Below, piece by piece: positions 4,428 through 51,028 of a DNA stretch of 64,000 nt. The notes below the pieces were generated by a model. It ran no database searches and was not told where the DNA came from. It was given only the letters and a program-made list of their open reading frames with translations. Location of the stretch: assembly GCA_022711595.1 (NCBI GenBank), contig JAKLET010000020.1, positions 1 to 64,000 on the forward strand. Reading direction: 5' to 3'. Made by a program: the position numbers and the translations under genes. This stretch comes from Deltaproteobacteria bacterium. Lineage in GTDB: Bacteria > Desulfobacterota > Syntrophorhabdia > Syntrophorhabdales > Syntrophorhabdaceae. Positions within the stretch are counted from its first letter, which is position 1. Each line of letters starts with the position of its first letter.

Positions 4428-5075
4428 CTACTCTCCTTTTACAAAACCATGCCGGGAAAGGAAATCAAGATCGATCCCTTTCCCTTCCCGCTTCGCCAGA
4501 AAACTTTCCACGTATTTTCCGATGATATCCGTCTCAATATTTATCTTATCCCGCAGGTTCTTTTCGAGAATGGTGGTCCGGGAAGCGGTGTACGGAATTA
4601 TATTAACCGTAAATGTATTATCACGTTGTTCGTTGACTGTCAAGCTGATTCCGTCGATTGTCACCGAGCCTTTCCTTACGATCAACCGCGCTGTTTCACC
4701 CGGGACCTCAATGGTCATCCTCATGGAATCACCCTCTTTACGCATGTCCGTGATGGCCCCGACACAGTCGACGTGACCTGTCACGATATGCCCTCCGAAT
4801 CGCCCTTCCATGGTCATGGCACGCTCGAGATTGACCTTTTGACCGGTTCCCTTGTCTTTTAGAGTTGTAAGGCCGAGCGTCTCAAGGGAAACATCGACAC
4901 GAAAGGTGTCCTTGCCGACGGCCGTGGCGGTAAGGCATACGCCGTCAACGCATACACTGTCGCCCTCGCGGACGCTTCCGGGTTCAAAAAGGCTCTTAAT
5001 GACAAAGACCCAGCTTCCGCTTTTTTTCTCGATTGCCGAGATGGTGCCCGTGTCTTCAATGATTCCGGTGAACAT
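4428..5075 (-). CDS. ribE: riboflavin synthase, alpha chain
   Basis: The 215-residue protein has the two lumazine-binding repeats of riboflavin synthase, which dismutates two lumazine molecules to riboflavin. Repeat one starts with the invariant MFTGIIEDTG; repeat two starts near residue 94 with GGHIVTGHVD. ISLTVN in repeat two matches CLTAT in repeat one. The ATG overlaps the last 20 bp of ribD, so coupled translation is likely. The order ribD-ribE-ribBA-ribH is the classic riboflavin operon, here without any FMN riboswitch because nrdR abuts ribD. Confidence 0.96.
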   Translation of the reverse strand: MFTGIIEDTGTISAIEKKSGSWVFVIKSLFEPGSVREGDSVCVDGVCLTATAVGKDTFRVDVSLETLGLTTLKDKGTGQKVNLERAMTMEGRFGGHIVTGHVDCVGAITDMRKEGDSMRMTIEVPGETARLIVRKGSVTIDGISLTVNEQRDNTFTVNIIPYTASRTTILEKNLRDKINIETDIIGKYVESFLAKREGKGIDLDFLSRHGFVKGE

Positions 5076-6159
5076 AGCCCTCTACGTAAATGTTTTCTTT
5101 CAGTCTTTTCAGGGTTACCACATCGATGCGGTATGCATCCTTCAAAAAATCGATCCCTTTGCCGCCCACCAGGTTCAATGCCCCCTTGCCGCCTATAAAA
5201 AGGGTGCCGTAAAAGAGCACGATCTTGTCGACAAGGCCGTCCCGCAGAAGGGTACTGTTGACCTCTCCTCCGCCTTCAACAAGAACGCTCATGATCTCGC
5301 GGCGGTAGAGTTCATCACAGACGTGCCTGACGGAGACTCTTCCATTGTCGTCCCTTGGTATCCTTATGACATCGACTCCCATTGCCCTGAGCTTTGTTTC
5401 CTTGTCCGCGCGCGAGTCTTCGCTGGTAAAGACCCATGTCCGGTATTTGTCCGACGTCTTTACCACGTCACATGCCAGCGGGATGCGGAGCTTCGAATCA
5501 AGGATGATCCTGACGGGGGTCTTCCTGGGTTTTTTGAGCCTCGGAATGAGCAGGGGGTTGTCGGAGATGACGGTATTGATCCCCACCATGATACCATCGG
5601 TGACACTGCGGAGCATATGTGCCTGCCGCCTCGATTCTTCATTGGAGATCCACTTGGAATCGCAGGTCTTGGTGGCGATCTTGCCGTCGAGGCTTACCGC
5701 CGCCTTCATGGTCACAAAGGGCCTCTTCTTTTCCATGGAAACGATGAAGGCCTCGTTGAGCCGGCGGGCCTCCTCTTCAAGCATTCCCACCTTCACGTCC
5801 ACACCGGCCTTGCGCAGGGCCTCCACGCCCTTGCCGTTGACGAGAGGATTGGGGTCCAGCATGGAAAGAACCACTTTTTTTATGCCTGCGGCGATGATTT
5901 GATCGACGCAGGGCGGTGTCCTTCCGTAATGGACACAGGGCTCAAGATTCACATAAAGAGTGGCGCCGCCGGCGTTCTTCCCGGCGTCTTCAATGGCCCC
6001 AACCTCGGCATGATGATAGCCTGCTTTTCTGTGGTATCCCTTGCCGACGATCTGTGTGCCTTTTACAAGGACCGCCCCCACCATGGGGTTTGGCGATACT
6101 GTACCGAGCCCTTTTCTGGCAAGGGACAACGCCATGCGCATATACTGTTCGTCTTTCAC
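5056..6159 (-). CDS. ribD: riboflavin biosynthesis deaminase/reductase RibD
   Basis: The 367-residue bifunctional enzyme deaminates and then reduces the pyrimidine intermediate of riboflavin synthesis. The N-terminal cytidine-deaminase-like domain has HAE at 50-52 and PCVHYGRTPPC at 74-84, the zinc ligands. The C-terminal reductase domain starts near 145 (RPFVTMKAAVSLDGKIAT) and ends with the VEGGGEVNSTLL nucleotide-binding segment. It starts 21 bp after nrdR and overlaps ribE. Confidence 0.96.
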   Translation of the reverse strand: MKDEQYMRMALSLARKGLGTVSPNPMVGAVLVKGTQIVGKGYHRKAGYHHAEVGAIEDAGKNAGGATLYVNLEPCVHYGRTPPCVDQIIAAGIKKVVLSMLDPNPLVNGKGVEALRKAGVDVKVGMLEEEARRLNEAFIVSMEKKRPFVTMKAAVSLDGKIATKTCDSKWISNEESRRQAHMLRSVTDGIMVGINTVISDNPLLIPRLKKPRKTPVRIILDSKLRIPLACDVVKTSDKYRTWVFTSEDSRADKETKLRAMGVDVIRIPRDDNGRVSVRHVCDELYRREIMSVLVEGGGEVNSTLLRDGLVDKIVLFYGTLFIGGKGALNLVGGKGIDFLKDAYRIDVVTLKRLKENIYVEGYVHRNH

Positions 6160-6180
6160 GGATCAACCCCTGACACTGGA

Positions 6181-6645
6181 TCACTCTTCGTTCTTTTTCA
6201 AAAGGAGCTCCGTGAGCTCACTCATGAATTCGTTTATATCCCGGAACTGCCTGTAGACAGAAGCAAAACGGACATAGGCGATCCCGTCCAGGTCCTTCAG
6301 TTCGTCCATGACCATGGAGCCGATCTCTGCCGCCTTTATCTCTCTTTCCCCTTTTTCAAGGAGATTGTATTCGATCCTTGATACGATCTTTTCGAGATTG
6401 GTAACACTGATCGGCCTTTTTTCACAGGCCTTCTTCAGCCCGCTCAGGATCTTTGCCCTGTCGAAGACCTCCCGCCTTCCATCCTTTTTGACGACAAGCG
6501 GGAGTCCTTCCTCTATCCTCTCGGCAGTCGTGAAACGCTTGCCGCATTTGAGACACTCACGCCTGCGTCTGATGGCGTCCATCTCCTTGCTCATCCTCGA
6601 GTCAAGGACCTTGCTTTCAATGTAATCACAGAAGGGGCACTTCAT
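6181..6645 (-). CDS. nrdR: transcriptional repressor NrdR
   Basis: The 154-residue protein has the NrdR layout: an N-terminal zinc ribbon (Cys3, Cys6, Cys31, Cys34) followed by an ATP-cone domain (about 49-139) that senses ATP and dATP. NrdR represses ribonucleotide reductase genes. Ribonucleotide reductase is not in the window, but the next upstream gene is dCMP deaminase, another deoxynucleotide enzyme. Spacing is 19 bp from that gene and 21 bp to ribD, consistent with one transcript. Confidence 0.96.
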
Positions 6646-6664
6646 AACGCTGCCTTAACGATCG

Positions 6665-7198
6665 CTACCTGCTGCGCGTTGAAGCCTTTTGCTTCGTCGC
6701 CGTACGCGCAGCGGCGCCTTTTTGAGCAGGACGCGTACTGTGCGTCCTCACATCCACCTTTTTCAACAGGATGCCCGACTCATCGATGAGCCCCATTGAA
6801 AGCTCGTCGGGATATCCGTCAACATAGCAGACCTCTTTGATGCCTGCGTTTATGAGCATCTTGATGCATATCGAACAGGGCAGGTGAGTGCAGTAAAGAT
6901 GGGCCCCGCTTATGGACACACCGTGGTATGCCGCCTGGATTATGGCGTTCTGTTCCGCATGCAGTCCCCTGCATAGTTCATGGCGTTCCCCGGAGGCGAT
7001 CTTCATCCGTTCCCTCAGGCAGGAAACCTCCAGGCAGTGCTTCAGACCCGACGGCGCGCCGTTGTAGCCTGTTGACAGTATCCGCTTGTCTTTCACAATG
7101 ACTGCCCCGACATTGCGCCGCAGGCACGTCGATCTCATGGAAACGATTCGCGCGATCTCCATGAAATAGGAATCCCAGTCAGGACGATTGTTTTTCAT
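6665..7198 (-). CDS. dCMP deaminase (ComEB-like)
   Basis: The 177-residue protein is a cytidine/deoxycytidylate deaminase: zinc and catalytic residues are in HAE (80-82) and PCSIC (107-111), and the N-terminus has the [11 protein letters not shown] motif. dCMP deaminase makes dUMP for thymidylate synthesis. This fits with glyA directly upstream, which supplies methylene-tetrahydrofolate, and nrdR downstream. Its start overlaps glyA by 4 bp. The last 25 residues are a basic Ala/Thr/Lys-rich tail beyond the usual domain and of unknown use. Confidence 0.9.
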
Positions 7199-8442
7199 AT
7201 ATCATACATGCGTGAATAAAAAGGAAAACCTTTGCAGAATTCACGAACTTTGGCACGCGTGTTTTCCATGAACGATCTGTCGTTAAGGTTCTTCAGGACG
7301 GCGTCGATCATTACGCAGATGATCTCCATCTCCTTCTCTTTCATGCCGCGCGTGGTGACGGCGGGCGTGCCCAGCCTGATGCCGCTCGTGATACCCGGGC
7401 TCCTGGTATCGAAAGGGATGAGGTTCTTGTTCACCATGATGCCGCTTGCTTCAAGGGACACCTGCGCCTCGTTGCCCGTCACGTTCTTGGGTGTAAGGTC
7501 CACAAGGAAGAGGTGGTTGTCCGTTCCTCCGGAAACGATGCGAAAACCGAGATCGGCCATACATTTGGCCATGTATTTCGCGTTCGCGATGATCTGCTTC
7601 TGATATTGTTTGAACTCTTCCGTCATGGCCTGATGCAGTGCCACGGCCTTTGCGGCTATGACGTGCATAAGCGGTCCGCCCTGGATGCCCGGGAAAACGG
7701 CGGAATCGATCTTTTTTGCGAATTCCTGGTTGCAGAAGACAATGCCGCCCCGCGGTCCCCGCAGGGTCTTGTGTGTTGTCGTCGTCACGAAATGCGCGTG
7801 CCCGAAGGGACTCGGGTGGAGCCCGGCCGCGACAAGCCCGGCGATATGGGCGATATCGGCCATGAAATAAGCCCCGACCTCGTCGGCTATTTCCCGGAAT
7901 TTCTTGAAATCGATGAATTTCGAGTATGCACTGGCACCGGCGATTATAAGCTTCGGTCTTTCCTTGCGGGCTACGGCGAGTATCTCATCGTAATCGAGCA
8001 TCTCATCCTTTTCGGACACCGCGTATGATACCGCCCTGTACCATTTTCCAGAAAAACTGGGTTTTGCCCCATGGGTCAGATGGCCTCCGTGGGCGATGTC
8101 CATACCAAGCACCGTGTCACCACGGTCGAGCACTGCGTAATAGACGGCCATGTTCGCCGACGAACCGGAATGCGGCTGGACGTTGGCGTGTTCGGCCCCG
8201 AAGAGTTCCTTCGCCCGTTCTATTGCGATGCTCTCTATTTCGTCGAGGTGCGTGCAGCCGCTGTAGTACCTCTTTGTCGGGTATCCTTCGGCATATTTGT
8301 TGGTAAGGACGCAGCCCTGAGCGGCAAGGACATCCTCATCCGCATAGTTTTCCGAGGCGATGAGTATGAGGCTGTATTCCTCGCGGTCCAGCTCGCGCCT
8401 CATGAGTTCGAAGATCTTTGTGTCTTTCCCTTCCAGTTTCAT
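7195..8442 (-). CDS. glyA: serine hydroxymethyltransferase
   Basis: The 415-residue PLP enzyme converts serine and tetrahydrofolate to glycine and methylene-tetrahydrofolate. The PLP lysine is K225 in the [14 protein letters not shown] motif, and the N-terminal SENYAD and [11 protein letters not shown] motifs are intact. Full length for the bacterial family. It lies 3 bp after rpiB and overlaps the deaminase gene, so it is inside the long operon. Confidence 0.97.
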
Positions 8443-17242: not shown

Positions 17243-17299
17243 AATCGGGAATCAGTTCCATGCTCCAGATCTCAGGAAAAAGTAATTGTTCGTCTTAGC

Positions 17300-17327
17300 T
17301 TGGAACCTTGAACCTGAAACCTTGAAC
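17300..17327. repeat. four heptamers touching the cysteine desulfurase stop codon
   Basis: Units TTGGAAC, CTTGAAC, CTGAAAC and CTTGAAC follow each other without gaps. The last base is shared with the stop codon of the upstream gene (17327-17329). Confidence 0.75.
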
Positions 17328-18487
17328 TATTTTTTATAGAACGGCGACATTGAGCGCAGTCTGGCGACCACCCCGGGGATGGTCTCAAGGGCGTAGTCAA
17401 TTTCCTCTTCAGTATTGCCCCGGCCCAGGCTCAGGCGAAGGGCGCTCTGGCATAAAGGTCCCGGGATGCCCATCGCGAGGAGCACATGAGACGGCTCCGT
17501 TGAGCCGGAAGAGCAGGCGGACCCGGACGAAACGGCTATGCCTTTCATGTCGAGCGCGACAAGAAGCGACTCGGACTCAATGAACTCAAAGCTGAGATTG
17601 AGCGTATTGGGAAGCCTCTGCGTCGGATGGCCGTTGAGCCGCACATCGTCGACGCGCTCAAGGATGCCCTCCAGGAGACGCCTGCGCAGGCCCTCGATCC
17701 TGGCCGAGTCTTTCTTTATTTCCCTTCCCGCTATGTCGCAGGCGGCGCCGAACGCTACGATGCCGATGACGTTCTCTGTGCCTGCCCGCCTTCCCGATTC
17801 CTGGTGGCCCCCGTGGATAAGATTATCTATCTCAATGCCTCCGCGAACGTAAAGCGCCCCGATCCCCTTGGGAGCATAGACCTTGTGGCCGGAGAAGCTC
17901 GCCATGTCGACACCGAGGGCCGCCAGGTCTATATCGACCTTTCCCAGCGCCTGCACCATGTCCGAATGGAAGACGACGCCCCTGTCGCGGGCAATGCGGG
18001 CAATATCGGCGATGGGCATCAGCGTGCCCGTCTCGTTGTTGGCGTACATGACGGATATAAGGATGGTGTCCTTTCTTATCGCGCGCTTCACGTCGTCGGG
18101 ATCAACAAGGCCCAGTCCGTCGACAGGCAGATAGGTCGCCGAAAATCCCTGCGTTTCCAGATACCGGCATACATTGAGCACTGCCGGGTGCTCCACCTGC
18201 GAGGTTATGATGTGGCCCCTTTTACCGCCGCCCGCATAGGCTATGCCCTTGATAGCATGGTTGTTGCTTTCCGAGCCGCAGCCCGTGATCACGATCTCGC
18301 CAACCTTCGCTCCCACCATGGCGGCGATCTGTTCACGTGCCTTTTCATACGGTACCTTCACGTCCCTCCCGGCGAAGTGAAGGCTTGAGGGGTTCCCGAA
18401 GAATTCCCGTAAAAATGGCTGGATCGCTTCGGCCACTTCCGGGTGGACAGGCGTCGTGGCGTTATTATCGAAATATACCGTTCGCAT
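17327..18487 (-). CDS. cysteine desulfurase (NifS/IscS family)
   Basis: The 386-residue PLP enzyme takes sulfur from cysteine as a persulfide. The PLP lysine is Lys202 (SGHKVYAPKG) and the persulfide Cys is Cys325 in SSGSACSSGSTEPSH, a group I NifS/IscS signature. The N-terminus YFDNNATTPVHPEV is canonical. It follows the NIL/ferredoxin gene by 12 bp. No iscU is adjacent, so its acceptor may be the thiolation enzymes encoded nearby rather than a dedicated cluster scaffold. Confidence 0.95.
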   Translation of the reverse strand: MRTVYFDNNATTPVHPEVAEAIQPFLREFFGNPSSLHFAGRDVKVPYEKAREQIAAMVGAKVGEIVITGCGSESNNHAIKGIAYAGGGKRGHIITSQVEHPAVLNVCRYLETQGFSATYLPVDGLGLVDPDDVKRAIRKDTILISVMYANNETGTLMPIADIARIARDRGVVFHSDMVQALGKVDIDLAALGVDMASFSGHKVYAPKGIGALYVRGGIEIDNLIHGGHQESGRRAGTENVIGIVAFGAACDIAGREIKKDSARIEGLRRRLLEGILERVDDVRLNGHPTQRLPNTLNLSFEFIESESLLVALDMKGIAVSSGSACSSGSTEPSHVLLAMGIPGPLCQSALRLSLGRGNTEEEIDYALETIPGVVARLRSMSPFYKK

Positions 18488-19906: not shown

Positions 19907-20782
19907 ATGGAGATCATATCCGCAAAGGAGCTGTCTAAATATCTCAAGATCAATGAAAAGATGATATACCGGCTGGTGCAGGAATCTAAACTGCCGTCCA
20001 TCAGGATAGGCGGGAAGATCGCCTTCGCGAAAGGGCTCATCGACGACTGGATACTGGAAAATACCCAGCGCGAGAAGCTCATCCTCATTGCGGGCAGCGA
20101 TGACCCGATGCTCAGAAAGATCATTGACCTTTTCAATGCCTTTCAAAAAGAAACCACCGTATTTTACGCGCCCGTGGGCAGCATGAACGGTCTTAAGCTG
20201 CTCAGGGAGCGGGCCGCCACCATGTCGTGCGTGCATATCCTCGACCTTGAGGAAAAGGGCTATACGCTGTCATATCTCAACAAGTACCTCGAAAGCGAAA
20301 ACTATGTTGTCGTAAACCTGTTTTTCCGTGATCAGGGTCTTTACCTGAAAAAAGGAAACCCGGCCGGGATAAAATCCATCGCTGACCTCACCGCTGAGAG
20401 CGTAAAATTCGTCAACAGGAACAAGGGCTCCGGCACGCGGCTTCTCTTTGACTTCCTTCTCAGCGAGTCCGGCGTGGACCCATTGAAGATCGACGGTTAT
20501 AATAATGAGGTGGAGTCTCACCTTGCTGCCGGCAACGCAGTACTGCTGGGCAATGCCGATGCCTCGCCAGGCATCCGCTACATGGCCCACATCCTTGACC
20601 TGGACTTTGTGCCCTTCTTCAAAGAACGTTTTGACCTTGTCATCTCCCGGGAGAGGTTCTTAAACGTGCAGACAAAGGCCTTTCTGGACTTTTTCAATGA
20701 GCCTGTCCTCCTGCACTCCCTCAAGGACCACGAAGGTTACGATATGTCTCAAACGGGGAGCGTCCTGAACAAGGATGTATAA
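19907..20782 (+). CDS. HTH / PBP-like regulator
   Basis: The 291-residue product starts with an excisionase/MerR-type helix-turn-helix (SAKELSKYLKINEKMIYRLVQ, residues 5-25) and continues, from about 55, with a periplasmic-binding-protein-like domain lacking a signal peptide. This arrangement is seen in one-component regulators thought to sense oxyanions such as molybdate or tungstate. The ligand here is unknown. The reading frame is open further upstream, but the HTH begins at this ATG and the promoter overlaps the upstream part. The stop overlaps the prmA start (ATGTATAA). Confidence 0.82.
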   Translation: MEIISAKELSKYLKINEKMIYRLVQESKLPSIRIGGKIAFAKGLIDDWILENTQREKLILIAGSDDPMLRKIIDLFNAFQKETTVFYAPVGSMNGLKLLRERAATMSCVHILDLEEKGYTLSYLNKYLESENYVVVNLFFRDQGLYLKKGNPAGIKSIADLTAESVKFVNRNKGSGTRLLFDFLLSESGVDPLKIDGYNNEVESHLAAGNAVLLGNADASPGIRYMAHILDLDFVPFFKERFDLVISRERFLNVQTKAFLDFFNEPVLLHSLKDHEGYDMSQTGSVLNKDV

Positions 20783-21632
20783 CAACCCGAAAGGAACGCG
20801 CCCGGTTGCGGGAGCGACAACGCGCGTGGACGTTGTGATCGACGCAGGGGCACAGGAGCTTCTGCCGGAAGAGATCCACACCATTTATGCCCCGTCAGGA
20901 TTATGGATCGCGGAGGAATCTCCGCAAACGGTCACTGTCAGTGCCTATCCAGAACATGTTGAAACATACCTGGCGGCAATGCGCCGTTGCGGCATTTCCA
21001 TCCACGACGTGCGGGTCACGCAGGAAGACCGCCGCGATTATTCGGAACTTGCCAGGCGCTATTTCCGCCCCATAAAAGTGGAGGACATCGTCATCCGCTC
21101 ACCCTGGAACAGGGAAAAAGCAGGTATCAATTACATAACGATCGAACCTGGTATGGCCTTCGGCACCGGCAGGCATGAATCGACAAGGCTCATGATGAAG
21201 CTCATGCGCGCCATGGATATTTCCGGGAAAAGGGTCCTTGAGATCGGCTGCGGCTCTGCCCTCCTGTCCCTCTATGCGCGCATGAATGGGGCAAGGCGTG
21301 TTTATGCCGTGGACAACGATCTTGACGCGGTTCTCTCCGCGCGGAAGAATATCCTCCTCAACGGGGCCTCCGGCATAGAGCTCGTATGCGCTGACGCCAT
21401 GGACATCAGCGGAAAATATGATATTGTTCTTGCCAACCTCGACATCCGCACCTTCACCCTGTCATCAGGCCACGTTATGGGTCTCGTCAGGCGGGGCGGC
21501 TCGCTCGTTATCTCAGGCATAATAGGGAGGGAGAAAAAGCAGGCGCTCAAGCTCTTTGCGCCGTGGGAACCGGCCGCTGAAGCAAAGAAGAACGCCTGGC
21601 TGGGGTTTGTCTTTCACAAGGCGTTGTCCTGA
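20775..21632 (+). CDS. prmA: ribosomal protein L11 methyltransferase
   Basis: The 285-residue protein has the PrmA order: an N-terminal substrate domain (about 1-110), a linker, and a Rossmann methyltransferase domain. Motifs are EPGMAFGTGRHEST, VLEIGCGSALLSLYA (SAM-binding motif I) and LANLDIRTF (in place of the usual NPPY-like LANI segment). It should trimethylate L11 on the large ribosomal subunit. It overlaps the regulator gene by 8 bp. Confidence 0.9.
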   Translation: MYNNPKGTRPVAGATTRVDVVIDAGAQELLPEEIHTIYAPSGLWIAEESPQTVTVSAYPEHVETYLAAMRRCGISIHDVRVTQEDRRDYSELARRYFRPIKVEDIVIRSPWNREKAGINYITIEPGMAFGTGRHESTRLMMKLMRAMDISGKRVLEIGCGSALLSLYARMNGARRVYAVDNDLDAVLSARKNILLNGASGIELVCADAMDISGKYDIVLANLDIRTFTLSSGHVMGLVRRGGSLVISGIIGREKKQALKLFAPWEPAAEAKKNAWLGFVFHKALS

Positions 21633-21640
21633 GTCCAGCC

Positions 21641-21676
21641 GTTTCAACCGTTTCAACAGTTTCAACAGTTTTCAGT
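21641..21676. repeat. four 9-bp units downstream of prmA
   Basis: Units GTTTCAACC, GTTTCAACA, GTTTCAACA and GTTTTCAGT run without gaps, starting 8 bp after the prmA stop. They lie between convergent prmA and purN. The unit is the reverse complement of the one on the other side of purN. Confidence 0.85.
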
Positions 21677-21691
21677 TCCGAAAGGGACGGG

Positions 21692-22291
21692 TCACCTGGC
21701 AGGCAGGACGATCTCACCGGTTGCAATACGCTGCAAAGTGGCCGGATACAGCAGGTGTTCCTGCGCCAGAACGCGTTCGGCCAGGATCTCGGGTGTGTCT
21801 CCGGGCATGACCGGCACCCGAACCTGGGCGAGAATAGGCCCCCTGTCATATTCCTCGTCGACAAGGTGGACAGTAACCCCTGATTCTTTCTCTCCCGCAG
21901 CGATTACAGCCTCATGAACATGGATGCCGTACATTCCTTTGCCGCCGAACTTTGGCAGGAGGGCAGGGTGGATGTTGAGAATGCGCCCCCTGAAACAGGC
22001 AAGCGTTTTTGGCCCGAGTTTCTTCATATATCCTGCAAGGGCAATGACATCCACATTGTGACGGACAAGGGTGTCCATGATCGCCCTGTCAAGATCATCC
22101 GGGTCGGGGTGGGTATTTCCGCTCAGGTGATAATTGGGGATTCCCTCTGTCCTGGCACGTTCAAGGGCACGAGAATCACCATTGTTGCTGATCACGACCG
22201 CTGCCGCGGCACTGAGCCTGCCTTCCTTGCATGCATCGATGATCGCCTGCATGTTGCTTCCGCCGTGTGATGCAAGGAACCCTATATTCAT
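21692..22291 (-). CDS. purN: phosphoribosylglycinamide formyltransferase
   Basis: PurN transfers a formyl group from 10-formyl-tetrahydrofolate to GAR in purine synthesis. The 199-residue protein has the start LASHGGSNMQAIIDA, the catalytic Asn/His region LNIHPALLPKFGGKG and HVHEAVIAAGEKESGVTVHLVDEEYDRG, with the conserved Asp in the last segment. Length is normal. It appears to be a single-gene unit with its own promoter, bracketed by inverted 9-bp arrays. Confidence 0.96.
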   Translation of the reverse strand: MNIGFLASHGGSNMQAIIDACKEGRLSAAAAVVISNNGDSRALERARTEGIPNYHLSGNTHPDPDDLDRAIMDTLVRHNVDVIALAGYMKKLGPKTLACFRGRILNIHPALLPKFGGKGMYGIHVHEAVIAAGEKESGVTVHLVDEEYDRGPILAQVRVPVMPGDTPEILAERVLAQEHLLYPATLQRIATGEIVLPAR

Positions 22292-22340
22292 GATTGTTTT
22301 CCTGTTATCGATATTTGATGTTCAGTTGACGATATTTCAA

Positions 22341-22369
22341 ATATTATCCATGGAAAAAATGATTGTCAA
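22341..22369 (-). promoter_or_regulatory. purN promoter
   Basis: On the minus strand TTGACA (22369-22364) and TAATAT (22346-22341) are 17 bp apart. The start codon is at 22291, giving a leader of about 40 bases. Confidence 0.6.
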
Positions 22370-22401
22370 CGTAATTATCGAACAGGCACCGCGTAAGAAC
22401 G

Positions 22402-22455
22402 GTTTGAACAGTTGAAGCGGTTGAAACGGTTGAAACGACTGTTACAGCTGAAACG
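22402..22455. repeat. six 9-bp units downstream of ftsY
   Basis: Units GTTTGAACA, GTTGAAGCG, GTTGAAACG, GTTGAAACG, ACTGTTACA and GCTGAAACG run without gaps and end 6 bp from the ftsY stop codon. They also lie about 33 bp upstream of the purN -35 box. Confidence 0.85.
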
Positions 22456-22461
22456 GTTTTT

Positions 22462-23370
22462 TCAATCGAACAGCGCTTCCGCAAACTCCTTCGCATTGAA
22501 AGGTATCAGGTCATCTATCTTTTCACCGACACCCACATACCGGACGGGTATCTTCAGAAGATGGGCAATGGGCAGGATGAAACCGCCCTTGGCGGTCCCG
22601 TCGAGCTTTGTGATGACGATGCCCGTGACGGCAACGGCCTCATTGAAACTTTTCGCCTGCGCTATGGCGTTCTGGCCGTTCGTTGCGTCGACGACGAGAA
22701 GAACTTCATGGGGGGCGCCTTCCACCTCGCGCGCAACCACCCGGTGTATCTTTTTCATCTCTTCAATGAGGTTGGCCTTGGTGTGGAGCCTGCCTGCCGT
22801 ATCGAGGATAACAACATCGGCCCCCCGGGACCTGGCGGCTTTTACCGTGTCGAAGGCCACTGCCGCTGGATCTGACCCGTCGGCGTGCCTTACCATTTCG
22901 ATGTCGAGGCGTTTTGCCCATACATCGAGCTGTTCGATGGCCGCGGCCCGGAAGGTATCACAGGCGCCGAAAATGACCTTTCTGCCCTCGTTGCGATAGA
23001 TCCCCGCCATTTTGGCAATGGTCGTTGTCTTGCCGACGCCGTTCACGCCGAGAGCGAGGATCACGAAAGGTTTTCTGCTGTCCGTGGCGATCGGTGATTC
23101 AATAGGCATGAGGATCTTCAGGACCTCTTCCTTCATGGATGACCGTATGTCATCGGTCGTCCTGATGAGCCCTCGTTTCCATTTCTCTTTCAGGGCACCT
23201 ACCAGGAGCTGTGCGGTCTCCAATCCCGCGTCGGAGAGTATCATGGCCTCTTCGATCTCGTCAAAGGCATCCTCGTCGACGGGTTTACCGGAGACCATCC
23301 ATTCGATCTTCGTTTGTATCTGCTGTCTTGTTTTTGTCAGGCCGTTCTTTATCTTCTCAAAAAAACCCAT
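22462..23370 (-). CDS. ftsY: signal recognition particle receptor FtsY
   Basis: The 302-residue GTPase receives SRP-ribosome complexes at the inner membrane. It contains only the NG domains: helical N domain (1-90), then G domain with GVNGVGKTTTIAKMA, DTAGRLHT and TKLDGTAKGG. The long acidic A domain of E. coli is absent, as in many bacteria. It is followed by a T-run within a few bases of the 9-bp array. A weak TATAAT-like box is near 23430; the -35 is poor. Confidence 0.96.
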   Translation of the reverse strand: MGFFEKIKNGLTKTRQQIQTKIEWMVSGKPVDEDAFDEIEEAMILSDAGLETAQLLVGALKEKWKRGLIRTTDDIRSSMKEEVLKILMPIESPIATDSRKPFVILALGVNGVGKTTTIAKMAGIYRNEGRKVIFGACDTFRAAAIEQLDVWAKRLDIEMVRHADGSDPAAVAFDTVKAARSRGADVVILDTAGRLHTKANLIEEMKKIHRVVAREVEGAPHEVLLVVDATNGQNAIAQAKSFNEAVAVTGIVITKLDGTAKGGFILPIAHLLKIPVRYVGVGEKIDDLIPFNAKEFAEALFD

Positions 23371-33141: not shown

Positions 33142-33169
33142 GGGTTATGGGTCATGGGTTATGGGTTAT
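33142..33169. repeat. four heptamers upstream of the radical SAM gene
   Basis: Units GGGTTAT, GGGTCAT, GGGTTAT and GGGTTAT run without gaps and stop 6 bp from the terminator stem at 33176. They resemble GGGTAAT/AGGTCAT of the array at 1550. Confidence 0.85.
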
Positions 33170-33175
33170 GGGGGT

Positions 33176-50332: not shown

Positions 50333-51028
50333 ATGAAGGAGAAGGTGGACATGGGGCCGGAGCTGATCGATGCAGCGGAAAAAGGCGACCTCGCACATGT
50401 CAAGTTCCTCATAGCGTCTGGAGCGGATGTGAACGCGAGGGACAGCAGCGGCTGGACGGCACTTATGGCGGCATCCCAGGCCGGACGAACTGAAGCAGTG
50501 CGGGCCCTCATCGAGGCAAAGGCGGATGTAAACGCCGGAGACGAGCCTGGCGTGACGGTACTTATGGCGGCATCCTCCTCGGGCCACACCGAGGCGGTGC
50601 GTCTGCTCATAGAGGCAAAGGCGGATGTGAACGCGAGAGAGAAGAACGGCTCGACGGCCCTTATGTGGGCATCGAGCGCAGGCCACACCGAGGCGGTGCG
50701 TCTGCTCATAGAGGCAAAGGCGGATGTGAACGCGAGGGTCGTGAACGGCTATACCGCCCTCATGGACGCATCGGGCGGCGGCCACACCGAGGCGGTGCGG
50801 CTGCTCATAGAGGCGAAGGCGGATGTGAACGCGAGGGACAAGGATGGCCTGACAGCGCTTATGCTGGCATCGATGATGGGCCACACCGAGGCGGTGCGGC
50901 TGCTCATAGAGGCAAAGGCGGATGTGAACGCGAGGGGCGCTGGCGGTTATACCGCCATTATGGATGCCTCGAGCAGAAACCGCGACGAGATAGTAAACCT
51001 TCTTAAACAGGCCGGAGCGAGGGAGTAG
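50333..51028 (+). CDS. ankyrin-repeat protein
   Basis: The 231-residue protein is made of about six 33-residue ankyrin repeats (from residue 10) with the core GHTEAVRLLIEAKADVNAR. Repeats three to six are almost identical in protein and DNA. There is no signal peptide or membrane segment, so it should be cytoplasmic and act in protein binding; the partner is unknown. It ends 70 bp before the convergent MBL gene. Confidence 0.85.
   Translation: MKEKVDMGPELIDAAEKGDLAHVKFLIASGADVNARDSSGWTALMAASQAGRTEAVRALIEAKADVNAGDEPGVTVLMAASSSGHTEAVRLLIEAKADVNAREKNGSTALMWASSAGHTEAVRLLIEAKADVNARVVNGYTALMDASGGGHTEAVRLLIEAKADVNARDKDGLTALMLASMMGHTEAVRLLIEAKADVNARGAGGYTAIMDASSRNRDEIVNLLKQAGARE
50581..50940 (+). 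repeat. near-identical 99-bp tandem repeats in the ankyrin gene
   Basis: A block of about 56 bp starting GGCCACACCGAGGCGGTGCG occurs at about 50581, 50680, 50779 and 50878, exactly 99 bp apart, with few changes. The sequence between blocks varies. Confidence 0.85.

Follow-up and report, generated by a model that had tools for sequence, protein, structure and literature searches.

In the draft genome examined here (G000; 3.55 Mb in 58 contigs), the purN gene lies in the opposite orientation to that seen in every relative compared, between neighbours that have kept theirs, and at both breakpoints of this inversion there are tandem arrays of a nine-nucleotide unit, GTTTCAACN, which are inverted copies of one another. 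The arrays belong to a dispersed repeat family with an orientation rule of its own. The two inverted arrays were probably the sites of a recombination event or template switch that flipped purN in place. The locus falls in a stretch of 64,000 nucleotides of contig JAKLET010000020.1, referred to below as the window.

The left outer gene encodes a prmA-like methyltransferase (20775..21632, plus strand), which matches Pfam PF06325 above the cut-off while its score is under the NCBIfam prmA cut-off. The left array (21641..21676, plus strand) lies 8 nt beyond the prmA stop and reads in the prmA sense. It consists of GTTTCAACC GTTTCAACA GTTTCAACA GTTTTCAG, three of these units being exact and one decayed. 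purN itself (21692..22291, minus strand) scores above the cut-off of NCBIfam TIGR00639, PurN, and 5' of it a consensus scan picked out a putative promoter-like site, TTGACA-17-TAATAT, with 10 of 12 matches (22341..22369, minus strand). The right array (22402..22455), GTTTCAACN on the minus strand, is made of roughly six units of the GTTGAAACG type, of which two are exact; it reads in the sense of ftsY (22462..23370, minus strand; TIGR00064 above the cut-off), 6 nt beyond the stop of that gene. The left array sits in the convergent prmA/purN space and the right array in the co-directional ftsY/purN space. Since the 3' ends of prmA and ftsY face each other, their arrays are inverted copies with purN between them.

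An earlier note, made from the letters of the window, had described inverted 9-bp arrays on either side of purN and its promoter, and this description holds. Tandem Repeats Finder gave a period of 9 for both arrays, the best inverted pair (21636-21670 with 22407-22441) comprises 35 nt at 89% complementarity, 736 nt apart, and purN and the promoter-like site both lie between 21676 and 22402. The longest exact inverted match around purN is 18 nt. The window contains 11 matches to GTTTCAACNGTTTCAAC at up to three mismatches, where 100 dinucleotide shuffles had 0.45 on average, and six of the 11 fall within the two arrays framing purN. An Rfam search of 21500-22600 gave no match at E values up to 1. 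The arrays alone were also considered as intrinsic terminators and rejected as such: the sense strands of the purN-side arrays fold no better than shuffles (z of -0.25 and -0.17), and a scan found no terminator-like site overlapping them, no stable hairpin with a U tract being formed.

The locus was compared with that of 12 relatives, 11 of the genus Syntrophorhabdus and one of the family (G021). The prmA-like gene and ftsY have the same orientation in the window as in all 12. The window reads prmA>, <purN, <ftsY, whereas G021 and all 11 other members of the genus have prmA>, purN>, <ftsY; in a further genome (G029), whose contig begins beyond prmA, purN is likewise convergent with ftsY. Thirty-seven other genes of the locus were colinear in at least one relative and none was reversed, the weak matches elsewhere that the gene table also includes, some of them reversed, not being positional counterparts. 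G021 joins the G000 branch in a concatenated tree, and with G021 as outgroup G000 is the first branch in the genus. Given that the outgroup and all other members agree, the purN flip is by parsimony derived in G000. GC skew was uninformative on the flip, the third-position skew of purN (-0.148) being within the range of its neighbours and of the relatives. The purN arrays border an in-place inversion in which the framed gene is reversed against all relatives, something that is invisible from the window alone. In the relatives with an unflipped purN the inverted-repeat scores of the flanks are at chance level. Before prmA, the window has a gene (19907-20782) with an N-terminal helix-turn-helix and a PBP-like domain (PF12728, PF12727); it has the same place in G004, G007, G009, G011 and G021 and no match there in the contigs of the other seven relatives.

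The association between flips and inverted repeats was examined for all genes of seven G000 contigs with colinear neighbours in the fetched contigs of the relatives (n = 363), using a motif-free score for how well the two spacers flanking a gene match in inverted orientation. Only two genes were flipped in place: purN, reversed against 7 of 7 contigs in this set, and a dus gene (PF01207; C12:9397-10398, locus L081) beside glyQ, which was compared with one relative (G003). Among the 361 genes with two neighbours purN ranked first (score 27) and dus second (23); the probability that both flips lead by chance is 1.5e-5, and it is 7e-5 for the subset of 167 genes whose two spacers each reach 15 nt. 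A direct-repeat control placed purN 19th and dus 6th. When all 533 genes with two spacers of 15 nt or more were ranked by z-score, untestable ones included, purN came fifth and dus eighth. Among the untestable genes, those at C1:135318-135968, C12:145990-146310 and C1:37654-37881 have strong inverted repeats on their flanks and are the first candidates for further flips. An all-against-all comparison of the fetched contigs (2263 gene-pair tests, 1313 genes) gave no more in-place flips of up to eight genes. Two flips in G000 are small numbers and the dus flip was seen against a single relative, which counts against our explanation. The arrays framing dus are of a different nonamer family, GGTTTNNNN; its double unit was counted 86 times over 1.14 Mb, and the reversed control three times. 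The longest exact inverted match around dus is 15 nt, and the dus leader travelled with dus while the glyQ leader stayed put. A further inversion concerns the purN-ftsY spacer of G005, which is inverted against G010 and G001 (354 and 358 bp, 87% identity) and is bordered by inverted arms of an unrelated CGGGCA-type repeat; as G005 and G001 cluster (support 0.98), this change is most simply placed on the G005 branch. On a larger scale, a block of about 5.5 kb with a three-gene operon and one more gene (G021 C103:67860-73268) is inverted against the G003, G005 and G006 contigs, i.e. between genera.

It is highly improbable that the purN flip is an assembly artefact, with the contig put together the wrong way round at the inverted repeats. 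Errors of this kind do occur at inverted repeats, and the genome is a draft in 58 contigs. However, the exact inverted matches of 18 nt at purN and 15 nt at dus are short, the k-mers of usual assemblers being longer than either, and the promoter-like site upstream of purN fits the present position of the gene. The arms in G005 share a long exact stretch, so that misassembly is harder to exclude there than for purN.

The repeat family at purN was followed through the genome. Exact GTTTCAACNGTTTCAAC occurs 16 times in the whole of G000 and not at all in 59 relatives; with up to two mismatches there are 150 occurrences in G000 against one for a reversed control pattern, and the exact triple unit is present in one of 395 genomes of the phylum, namely G000. 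An array census covered the seven whole contigs (1.14 Mb), with genes called by a simple custom codon-usage caller. A weight matrix for chained units, trained on arrays from the same seven contigs that it scanned, found 75 arrays against two and three in two simulated third-order Markov sets of equal size. Three of these arrays lie inside genes and 72 are intergenic. Of the 72, 45 have a 3' end as their closest gene end and read in sense (33 beginning 4-12 nt after the stop, three overlapping the gene end and nine at 25-239 nt); the remaining 27 comprise 14 at a 5' end in antisense, eight at a 3' end in antisense and five at a 5' end in sense. The GTTTCAACN arrays are a dispersed, species-specific family found mostly just past stop codons and reading in the sense of the gene. 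Neighbouring arrays less than 400 bp apart form 20 inward pairs, no outward pair and one same-direction pair, the spacers of the inward pairs being 29-193 nt. In one inward pair (L020) both arrays form a long stem enclosing a strong inner hairpin (z of -7.7). Arms within one site are barely more alike than arms across sites (permutation p = 0.017).

These placements bear on the possibility that purN was flipped by unrelated means and the arrays grew later, in a family that favours convergent 3' ends. Arrays are indeed enriched between convergent genes, with one in 23 of 111 such spaces and in 30 of the 576 others (Fisher p = 7.6e-7); it was the flip that made the prmA/purN space convergent, and the array sequence is specific to G000. 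Nevertheless prmA and ftsY, the genes to which the two arrays belong in their position and sense, have not moved, and the right array is in a co-directional space. Furthermore, the frame around dus is of a different repeat family, the third inversion, in G005, is also between inverted arrays, and relatives with an unflipped purN have short-unit arrays after prmA. TTTCAGG-type short repeats follow prmA in G002, G003, G005 and G010, and G006 has TTCAAGAG after prmA and an inverted GGGTTCC pair in the purN-ftsY space; the prmA-purN spaces of G004, G008 and G009 are about 20 nt long and free of repeats. On a direct reading of these spaces, made without statistics, the place and architecture of the repeats recur in part of the genus and the repeat sequence turns over. 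Given that the purN arrays follow the sense rule for prmA and ftsY and that relatives have arrays after prmA, the arrays need not result from the flip. That the exact GTTTCAACN family is absent from the relatives counts against our explanation, since arrays of this sequence may be younger than the flip. Later growth of the arrays is judged unlikely, and an active role of the arrays in the inversion is preferred.

The earlier note had left three readings of the paired arrays, namely a mobile cassette border, a chromatin or regulator site, or two independent arrays of the same class. The regular spacing and inverted arms do recall transposon ends or operator arrays, yet it is scarcely credible that a cassette or MITE border or a site for a regulator or chromatin protein surrounds purN. 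The gene is at the same locus in all 12 relatives that hold the locus, so that the proposed search for an empty site without purN found none, and conservation of purN was the outcome named beforehand as speaking against a cassette. Arrays follow many other genes, with the closely spaced inward pairs described above, and the 115 bp upstream of purN are single-copy; nothing was found that points to a regulator or chromatin site. A MITE or other mobile cassette was accordingly rejected, there being no empty sites in relatives and no shared core between the inverted ends. The 115-bp region was ruled out as a new element in its own right, as the 12 genus genomes contain no second copy of it, just short weak matches. 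The third reading was partly right: the arrays do belong to a dispersed family placed after stops, here those of prmA and ftsY, but the role of the pair as an inversion border was missed. Besides the one around purN, there are nine more frames of opposed neighbouring arrays, 0.4-6 kb apart.

The flip may be explained as follows. A crossover, or a replication template switch, between the inverted arrays would have turned about 750 bp carrying purN end for end in the lineage of G000. The outer genes would have been left untouched and purN intact, now convergent with prmA, co-directional with ftsY and preceded by its own promoter-like site. Probably dus, between arrays of the other 9-bp family, and the intergenic spacer in the related species were flipped in the same way. 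That the arrays caused the flip is well supported, and we infer it from their presence at these breakpoints and from the ranking over the seven contigs; the enzymology, whether template switching or a RecA-type route, is likewise inferred.

Parts of this scheme have parallels in the published record, as far as the text of the papers cited here was accessible. Template switching between inverted repeats is reported to homogenise the arms and invert the spacers (Abraham and Hazkani-Covo 2021, PMC8604942). Inverted arms, spacer inversion and homogenised arms are points of likeness, whereas the spacers in that work are of a few nucleotides, in yeast genes, and those here are 230-750 bp and include a whole gene. 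According to Achaz et al. 2003, quoted in PMC12863080, there is a link between the growth of inverted repeats and genome instability. Strand switches of single genes at an unchanged position have been described as evolutionary events (Merrikh and Merrikh 2018, PMC6220195); there inversions were inferred from GC skew, and the term 'inverted repeat' is absent from the accessible text, whereas here arrays lie at the breakpoints. REP elements (Tobes and Pareja 2006, PMC1525189) are also extragenic and dispersed, favour convergent ends and have been proposed as recombination hot spots, but each of them is a single palindrome, while here nonamers stand in tandem and a second, separate array is the inverted partner. 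There is also a likeness in placement to the GGGAATC heptamer arrays of Xanthomonas (Rehm et al. 2015, PMC4692102), which are dispersed intergenic tandem arrays of a short unit, often near a stop, with 70 and 75 inward-facing inverted pairs in two genomes. Those units are 7 nt long, G-rich and of quadruplex potential, whereas the present unit has 9 nt and no G tracts; the G000 arrays resemble the heptamers in placement but are not members of that family. The gene context of the Xanthomonas sites was more conserved than that of controls, and 'inversion' does not occur in the accessible text of that paper. Among the accessible papers, the literature search found none combining Syntrophorhabdus with tandem repeats.

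Published invertons (PMC5903667) are similar in that a segment is inverted between short imperfect inverted repeats, and it could be imagined that a site-specific recombinase keeps switching the orientation of purN within the population. An intact gene with its own promoter-like site is bordered by inverted repeats, the terminal repeats of the invertons described in the accessible part of that paper are typically 10-20 nt long, and G000 has four resolvase-family genes (PF00239). However, all four are on contigs other than that of purN, and the repeats, as members of a dispersed family, lack a fixed core site. Nor is the leader of purN a switching promoter, and switching would bring no obvious advantage to a gene of purine synthesis. 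Invertons are reversible and have a dedicated recombinase, whereas this flip is seemingly fixed. An active phase-variable inverton is therefore considered very unlikely, and recombination or template switching between the arrays remains the preferred explanation.

A frame of arrays does not force a flip. Four of the nine frames besides purN were compared with relatives (C12:38967, C12:192013, C1:80827 and C57:4964), and these blocks kept their orientation in all 38 relative loci with a comparable neighbour, so inversion is not an invariable result of framing. One of these four unflipped blocks has the gene that ranks third by inverted-repeat score, and the four together speak against the explanation favoured here. 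It is possible, though we hold this tentatively and consider it rather doubtful, that sense arrays past stops act as pre-placed inversion borders, so that a gene between facing gene ends can be flipped with its neighbours unharmed, and that such genes may still be switching in populations. Gene orientation in these bacteria would then be evolvable via a repeat system. The results suggest that such repeats allow single genes to flip without loss. How single genes change strand within a frozen gene order is an old question, and studies of it have mostly had no breakpoints to work with. In the present case a recognisable and dispersed repeat that follows an orientation rule marks them, and the relation is testable by counting flips and repeats in one genus. 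Bacterial short-unit tandem arrays thereby gain one concrete consequence.

Some further repeats were seen along the way. In G000 C55:92000-102000 (L097, L098) several adjacent genes have inverted-repeat scores of 24-51 for their flanking spacers, in a stretch without testable synteny. One array (C57:7796-7839, L112) lies inside the 3' end of the uvrA frame 4964-7858, and the matches of relatives to this UvrA end at residue 936-944 of 964; judging from the reading frame, the uvrA product seems to end in a C-terminal tail encoded by the array. The window also has tandem arrays of 7-bp units at 2217-2321, 17299-17326 and 33142-33172 (CGTAAAG, ACACCTT, GAACCTT, GGGTTAT), that at 17299-17326 abutting the 3' end of the gene 17327-18487. 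At 50423-50936 a 99-bp unit is repeated in tandem about five times; by eye it looks like ankyrin-repeat coding sequence.
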